A DNA stretch of 38,039 nt, from assembly GCA_031258255.1 (NCBI GenBank), contig JAIRNC010000026.1, positions 1-38,039 of the forward strand, in the 5' to 3' direction. The notes under the pieces were generated by a model. It was not told the DNA's origin and made no database searches. It was given only the letters and a program-made list of their open reading frames with translations. Position 1 is the first letter of the stretch; each line of letters begins with the position of its first letter. Made by a program: the position numbers and the translations under genes. Source of the DNA: Synergistaceae bacterium. Lineage in GTDB: Bacteria > Synergistota > Synergistia > Synergistales > Synergistaceae. Below, piece after piece: positions 34,364 through 34,956 of the stretch.

Positions 34364-34476
34364 GTCTTTTCCCCCGCCTCGTAAAAAAACGGACTGCCGT
34401 GGATTGCGCATAAAGCGGAGCCAGTTTGTGCGTAGTTGTTGGTACTAAGACTTTTTGAGGGAAGGAGGTGAAAGTA

Positions 34477-34956
34477 GTGGTTTTTACTGATGCGCTCCTG
34501 AACGGGACAGCACAATCTTCGACAGACAGACAGACAGACAGACAGACAGACAGACAGACAGACAGACAGACAGACAGACAGACAGACAGACAGCGTTTGG
34601 CGCGTATTTGCCGACACTGCTTCACGCTTGCCTCGCTCGCTGTCCTCAGCGTACCGAAAGTACGCTTCCGGGCGCTCGTTCGGCAATCCTTCGCATTGCC
34701 GGCAAATCCACGCCAAACGCAGCGGGTTGCTTATGGCGTAAAAACACCGCTCCCCTCCGGCCCGACTCACGGTTTTATCAGCGTTGCCCGCAAATTTCAC
34801 GGGGCATTAAATTACTCTTCGTGTTCCTTAATTTCTTGTATTCAAACCCAAATTTCCATGCGCATGGTGCCGGCGGCGTATCCGCTGGCATATTACCGCA
34901 ACGTTTTCGCTTTGCCCTGTGGCAAAGCGTGGTCGCCGTATGCCGAACGTAGGTAG
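34477..34956 (+). CDS. Possible leader reading frame containing a GACA microsatellite
   Basis: GTG 34477 has an excellent AAGGAGG site 8 bases upstream, and the frame runs 159 residues to 34956. After MVFTDALLNGTAQSS it encodes TDRQ repeats from the tetranucleotide tract, then sequence across an inverted-repeat element with no family resemblance. A change of one repeat unit would shift the frame; the neighbouring frame is also open to 34952. The strong ribosome site argues that it is translated. The composition past the repeat argues that it is not an ordinary protein. It may be a slippage-controlled leader for the surface genes; I give this low confidence. Confidence 0.3.
   Translation: MVFTDALLNGTAQSSTDRQTDRQTDRQTDRQTDRQTDRQRLARICRHCFTLASLAVLSVPKVRFRALVRQSFALPANPRQTQRVAYGVKTPLPSGPTHGFISVARKFHGALNYSSCSLISCIQTQISMRMVPAAYPLAYYRNVFALPCGKAWSPYAERR
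34521..34593. repeat. (GACA)18 tetranucleotide microsatellite
   Basis: Seventy-three bases of uninterrupted GACA, 18 full units plus one base. Such long pure tetranucleotide tracts are rare in bacteria outside phase-variable (contingency) loci, because they change length by polymerase slippage. Confidence 0.98.
34594..34719. repeat. 126-bp element bounded by 20-bp inverted repeats
   Basis: The outer arms 34594-34613 and 34700-34719 are inverted copies with 18 of 20 matches. Inside lie a perfect hairpin (34648-34654/34660-34666, loop CGAAA) and another (34681-34687/34695-34701). The element directly abuts the GACA tract. It may be a miniature transposable element or a structured RNA. Confidence 0.7.

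Follow-up and report, generated by a model that had tools for sequence, protein, structure and literature searches.

The window, that is, the whole 38,039-nt stretch of Synergistaceae DNA that was analysed, carries a predicted cobalamin riboswitch, a leader reading frame containing a long tetranucleotide repeat, and two genes for exported-looking proteins, all on the same strand. The features are as follows:

34190-34311, + strand: cobalamin (B12) riboswitch aptamer (Rfam RF00174; a marginal match, 31.8 bits against a gathering threshold of 31.5)
34329-34363, + strand: intrinsic-terminator hairpin and T-run, the putative expression platform (GAACCC...GGGTTC, then TTTATTTTTG)
34462-34468, + strand: Shine-Dalgarno sequence of the leader, AAGGAGG, spaced 8 nt from the GTG
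34477-34491, + strand: leader core GTGGTTTTTACTGAT, read as M-V-F-T-D and common to the family described below
34477-34956, + strand: leader ORF in the assembled phase (18.25 units), with its stop codon at 34954-34956
34521-34593, + strand: GACA tandem tract, 73 nt, 18.25 perfect units (TRF score 146), encoding (T-D-R-Q)n
34593-34720, + strand: 128-bp palindromic interspersed repeat abutting the GACA tract, with arms at 34593-34620 and 34693-34720
34731-35104, + strand: conserved structured 5′ UTR (three-species alignment, 79% mean column identity)
35111-36076, + strand: presumed target gene, encoding 321 aa; the N terminus is signal-peptide-like and there is no Pfam family
36177-38039, + strand, running off the window: second exported-looking protein, a possible co-target, with a Big_3 Ig-like domain (PF07523, E = 1.6e-7)

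The predicted leader start is the GTG at 34477-34479, and the tract begins 44 nt later; the runner-up tandem array in the window had a TRF score of 54, compared with 146 for the GACA tract. Coordinates and TRF output thus agree with the preliminary description, which had placed 18 GACA units over 73 bases at this distance past a GTG with a strong ribosome site, and had named surface-protein genes downstream. Its view that the frame after the tract is not protein-like also held. No Pfam match was found for the leader frame or the post-tract frame in the window, and the tract is followed by the interspersed repeat and then by the conserved 5′ UTR; a protein-like reading of the post-tract frame, which belongs to no family and overlaps that repeat, was rejected. 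The assembled 18.25 units, a count taken from a draft metagenome assembly, correspond to a long phase that stops 154 nt short of the gene. The alternative phases would stop at 34950-34952 or 34739-34741, so that two of the three are long and only the last is short. In line with the expectation that gain or loss of one unit shifts the frame, the predicted stops differ by phase, but just one of the three phases is clearly short here. Because two of the three phases are nearly equal in length, switching in the window may be weaker than at the related loci, or partly broken by the adjacent palindromic repeat.

A search for any (GNNA)x7 in 20 genomes, made without reference to the leader, provided 63 pure tracts of at least seven units, from 16 genomes of three Synergistaceae genera, for examination. 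Fifty-one of these, the window being counted among them, were preceded by a shared leader start, RTGGTTTTTACTGAT (Met-Val-Phe-Thr-Asp), with at most 3 mismatches allowed in this core. The unit varied within the family and included GGCA, GACA, GCCA, GCAA, and others; four further leader copies in the genome of the window were followed by (GACA)10, (GCCA)9, (GCAA)8, and an 8-nt repeat, respectively. A G-rich ribosome site occupied the corresponding position in nearly all family members. A degenerate leader pattern matched in 13 of the 188 genomes of the phylum, and the same pattern written backwards as a control gave 0 matches; one further genus (G015) also carries the leader-tract arrangement. 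Scanning of 84,980 species genomes returned 34 stretches, with a repeat in nearly all of the Synergistaceae ones and in none of the others. Every genome match outside Synergistaceae was without repeats and was judged to be due to chance, as were two matches to phages in IMG/VR, neither of which had repeats.

Several related arrangements were observed. The leader core lies without a tract ahead of other genes in L227 (G019:C23) and L228 (G176:C133), which are possibly lost or ancestral forms. In L229 (G146:C59), the leader is followed by a 7-nt repeat, (GGTCGCC)5, and one frame is directly fused to a glycosyltransferase. L249 (G009:C42) has a ribosome site, an unrelated leader, (GACA)14, and then CCTCC and TAAGGTAG, an architecture alike with a different leader peptide. 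In another Synergistota genus (G081-G083; L241-L243, L254, L255), GACA and GGCA tracts are preceded by a shared leader of their own, ATG[A/G]CTGATTGTGCAACAGTTTT; leader-plus-repeat families may therefore have arisen more than once. A different kind of repeat locus was seen on the minus strand of L166 (G169:C132) and L171 (G019:C43), where (TGTC)n encodes CLSV repeats in the apparent signal peptide of an exported protein.

The frame from the leader start to the tract was open in all 56 loci scored, including 2 doubtful ones with 4 mismatches to the core, and stops were present in the +1 frame at 49 loci and in the +2 frame at 22. From this comparison we infer that the leader is translated. The core was conserved at synonymous sites too, and its codons are all minority ones in the genes of the window (GTT 10%, TTT 28%, ACT 12%, and GAT 26%); for this reason the nucleotides of the core themselves seem to be under constraint. 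An alternative is that the tract acts in the DNA or at transcription initiation, the ATAAT or ACAAT just before it being a -10 element and the repeat number tuning the promoter or the start. TATAAT-like words do lie close ahead of the tract in many loci, and tracts in some other Synergistota directly follow TTGACA-like sequences. However, inspection by eye revealed no matching -35 element at the VFTD loci, and a promoter would leave the open frame, the ribosome site, and the paired stops past the tract without a role; we regard this explanation as improbable.

Directly past the tract, compact paired stops (TAAGTAA, TAGGTAA, TAAATAA) often shut two of the frames. In most loci the remaining one stays open and runs 100-400 nt towards the exported-protein gene. 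Two frames shut within 25 nt together with a third open for at least 100 nt were found at 21 of 36 non-redundant loci, compared with 2.2 ± 1.4 (maximum 8) in 400 dinucleotide shuffles; as many of the loci are related, such tests overstate their independence. The analysis of frames showed that the sequence past the tract would let only some of them continue to the exported-protein gene. The long frame overlaps the gene start by 4 nt in G019C12, G173C27, and G003C104, ends within 8 nt of the gene in G172C72 and G146C16, and fuses to it in G000C43, G000C109, G030C64, and G146C59; at other loci it stops 28-400 nt upstream. With frame ends so varied, no single mode of coupling fits all loci. Five of the 24 clear loci were assembled in the long phase, which is near the third expected under random phases.

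Orthologous loci were found in two other genomes. The G003 locus consists of a B12 riboswitch, a terminator, the leader, (GGCA)21, the UTR, and the target protein, and its flanks align with the window. In the sister species G001, the riboswitch, a terminator-like T-run, the UTR, and the gene are kept, but neither the tract nor a start codon for the leader is left. The tracts, namely GACA18 in the window, GGCA21 in G003, and none in G001, thus differ in both unit and number, a comparison between species only. Since the tract and the leader start are missing together in G001, this single case suggests that the two serve one function. The conservation of the UTR in G001 without a tract indicates that the UTR would also have a job independent of the leader. 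In the three-species alignment, its indels are not multiples of 3; RNAalifold, with only 3 sequences, gave -87.4 kcal/mol and 16 pairs with both partners changed, and from these sequences TCCCCTCC (34751-34758) was predicted to pair with the ribosome site of the gene (35098-35103). Anti-SD-like words were enriched right past the tracts (27 of 48 loci, compared with 14.7 ± 3.0 in shuffles), as a matter of composition. Such enrichment and the conserved, structured UTR would suit a tract that alters the structure or spacing of the 5′ UTR RNA and is itself untranslated. This is unlikely, as the leader frame is open in every locus and, in G001, loss of the tract is accompanied by that of the leader start codon.

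The palindromic repeat beside the tract has about 60 genomic copies, many of them in tandem with short spacers and many at contig ends. It reads GCGTTTGGCGCG...CGCGCCAAACGC (window 34593-34720; stretches L031-L065), and alignment to G003 showed that it is missing from the orthologous locus there. A specific insertion site was considered and rejected, since the flanks of the copies contained no clear target, tandem copies excepted. The palindrome adjoins GACA or GACG tracts at about seven loci in two genera, and the leader C85 sits before an apparent transposase remnant; leader, tract, and palindrome could have arisen as side effects of a mobile or interspersed repeat and have no regulatory role. 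Against such an origin, which appears very unlikely, the majority of leader-family members are without the palindrome and the majority of palindrome copies are without a tract, most of the targets are exported, and the frame filter lies far above chance.

Upstream of the leader, the terminator hairpin (-14.0 kcal/mol) ends 121 nt before the GTG. RF00174 counterparts precede the orthologous loci in G003 (31.3 bits) and G001 (29.3 bits). A search with RF00174 in 13 genomes gave 81 matches, 8 of which sit 131-207 nt ahead of a family leader on the same strand; a rough estimate from genome sizes and counts put the chance expectation for such pairs at about 0.03. These eight loci, at some of which the aptamer scores slightly below the RF00174 threshold, are the window, G003C109, G002C65, G019C12, G019C68, G019C73, G177C176, and G171C221, and all eight have a terminator-like hairpin between riboswitch and leader. 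The placement of the tract below a B12 riboswitch and terminator, as first described for the window, was therefore confirmed and found to recur. The aptamer is predicted to gate the window transcript, with cobalamin as the signal.

Orthologs of the presumed target protein were detected only in G001 and G003 among 61 genomes, at 46-47% identity (42% pairwise for G003). A PDB sequence search and a Pfam search at E values up to 10 gave nothing useful for this protein. Its AlphaFold fold matches were discarded as meaningless because the mean pLDDT was 48.5, and a suspected resemblance to a B12-binding (DUF4430-like) domain was not supported. Across the family, the downstream products included signal-peptide-like proteins, BspA-type LRR, FN3, GLUG, and Listeria-Bacteroides repeat proteins, as well as lipoprotein-like proteins, a glycosyltransferase, FkbM methyltransferases, and a hybrid sensor kinase. 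These are mostly kinds of genes that contingency loci control elsewhere; genes with surface or glycan domains lie downstream of the leaders, and their control by the leaders is predicted.

Because the leader and its varied four-base repeats recur before dozens of surface-protein genes in one family of uncultured, presumably gut-dwelling bacteria, a random on/off switch of surface proteins is very probable. For the window, our reading (probability roughly 0.7) is that the leader ORF is phase-variable through its tract and gates a surface protein, in series with a B12 riboswitch, both slippage and the step from leader translation to output being deduced. The tract resembles contingency loci in having a long, pure repeat, a unit that is not a multiple of 3, and a frame that appears, by comparison, to be translated. 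The earlier proposal of a contingency-type locus acting through leader translation is supported by a family of about 55 loci, the open leader frame, the frame filter, differing units at orthologs, and exported targets, but needs qualifying for the window, with its single clear short phase.

The switch could operate as follows. Slipped-strand mispairing would add or remove a GACA unit and change the frame. In long phases, ribosomes would traverse the 5′ UTR, leading to less premature termination, probably Rho-dependent, and/or to opening of the ribosome site of the gene; where the long frame meets or fuses with the gene, the leader could pass translation straight on. In the short phase, ribosomes would exit early (at 34739 in the window) and output would fall. 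As the riboswitch must first pass transcription, expression would require low B12 and a permissive repeat number. We favour polarity and opening of the ribosome site jointly. C exceeds G in the 90 nt past the tracts and not farther out or upstream, a composition expected of Rho loading sites, and Rho was present in 6 of the 6 genomes tested; loss of translation could therefore expose the transcript to Rho. Intrinsic attenuation of the kind known from pil1 (see below) was rejected, as no intrinsic terminator was found after the tract in the window; candidates with a hairpin and T-run were present at 11 of 57 loci.

On a broader scale, the odds are about even that these elements form a portable 5′ cassette, consisting of a ribosome site, a nucleotide-conserved leader start, an exchangeable repeat, and a filter of stops in two frames, which has come to precede numerous unrelated surface genes and, when combined with a metabolite riboswitch upstream, makes a gate that requires both signal and chance. 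If true, the sharing of one leader by dozens of genes in an uncultured lineage would amount to a genome-wide, sequence-recognisable set of switches, open to cataloguing from DNA alone; a single transcript would moreover be controlled in series by a sensor of a metabolite and by a genetic switch that is random. Reporters in a laboratory strain could test the predictions that follow from the stop filter and the 15-nt signature. The label host-associated fits these Synergistaceae MAGs, which, judging by their isolate codes, are presumably of termite-gut origin. Searches of an open-access library, judged by titles and abstracts, found no account of such repeats driving phase variation in Synergistetes, nor of a riboswitch combined with a repeat.

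The best-known contingency loci are those of a few pathogens, in which each target gene has a tract of its own. The repeat units of Haemophilus include GACA and GCAA, and the tract as a rule lies inside the coding sequence of the target gene itself. In the Synergistaceae, by contrast, most tracts are found in a shared leader that is separate from the gene and lies some 100-800 nt ahead of it. The loci with riboswitches are like other RF00174 systems in having an aptamer and an intrinsic terminator upstream and unlike them in that the regulated unit opens with a repeat-bearing leader ORF. In Haemophilus influenzae, tetranucleotide repeats in contingency loci are described as mediating phase variation of surface structures (PMC2651432). 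The nearest precedent appears to be pil1 of Streptococcus gallolyticus, where, as in pil3, GCAGA repeats in a leader peptide act by attenuation on a pilus surface operon (PMC3894217). As in pil1 (PMC3894217), the repeat of the Synergistaceae loci lies within a short leader ORF that has a ribosome site of its own, surface genes follow downstream, and repeat number is predicted to set leader length through the frame. The pil1 type has a 5-nt unit, two pilus loci, and, between leader and gene, an intrinsic terminator opened by the ribosome (PMC3894217); because this defining terminator was not found past the tract in the window, the locus would work like pil1 and is not counted as a member of its class. 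The Synergistaceae loci differ further: their units are mostly 4 nt long, dozens of unrelated genes share one leader start, paired stops follow the tract, and some loci have riboswitches in front.
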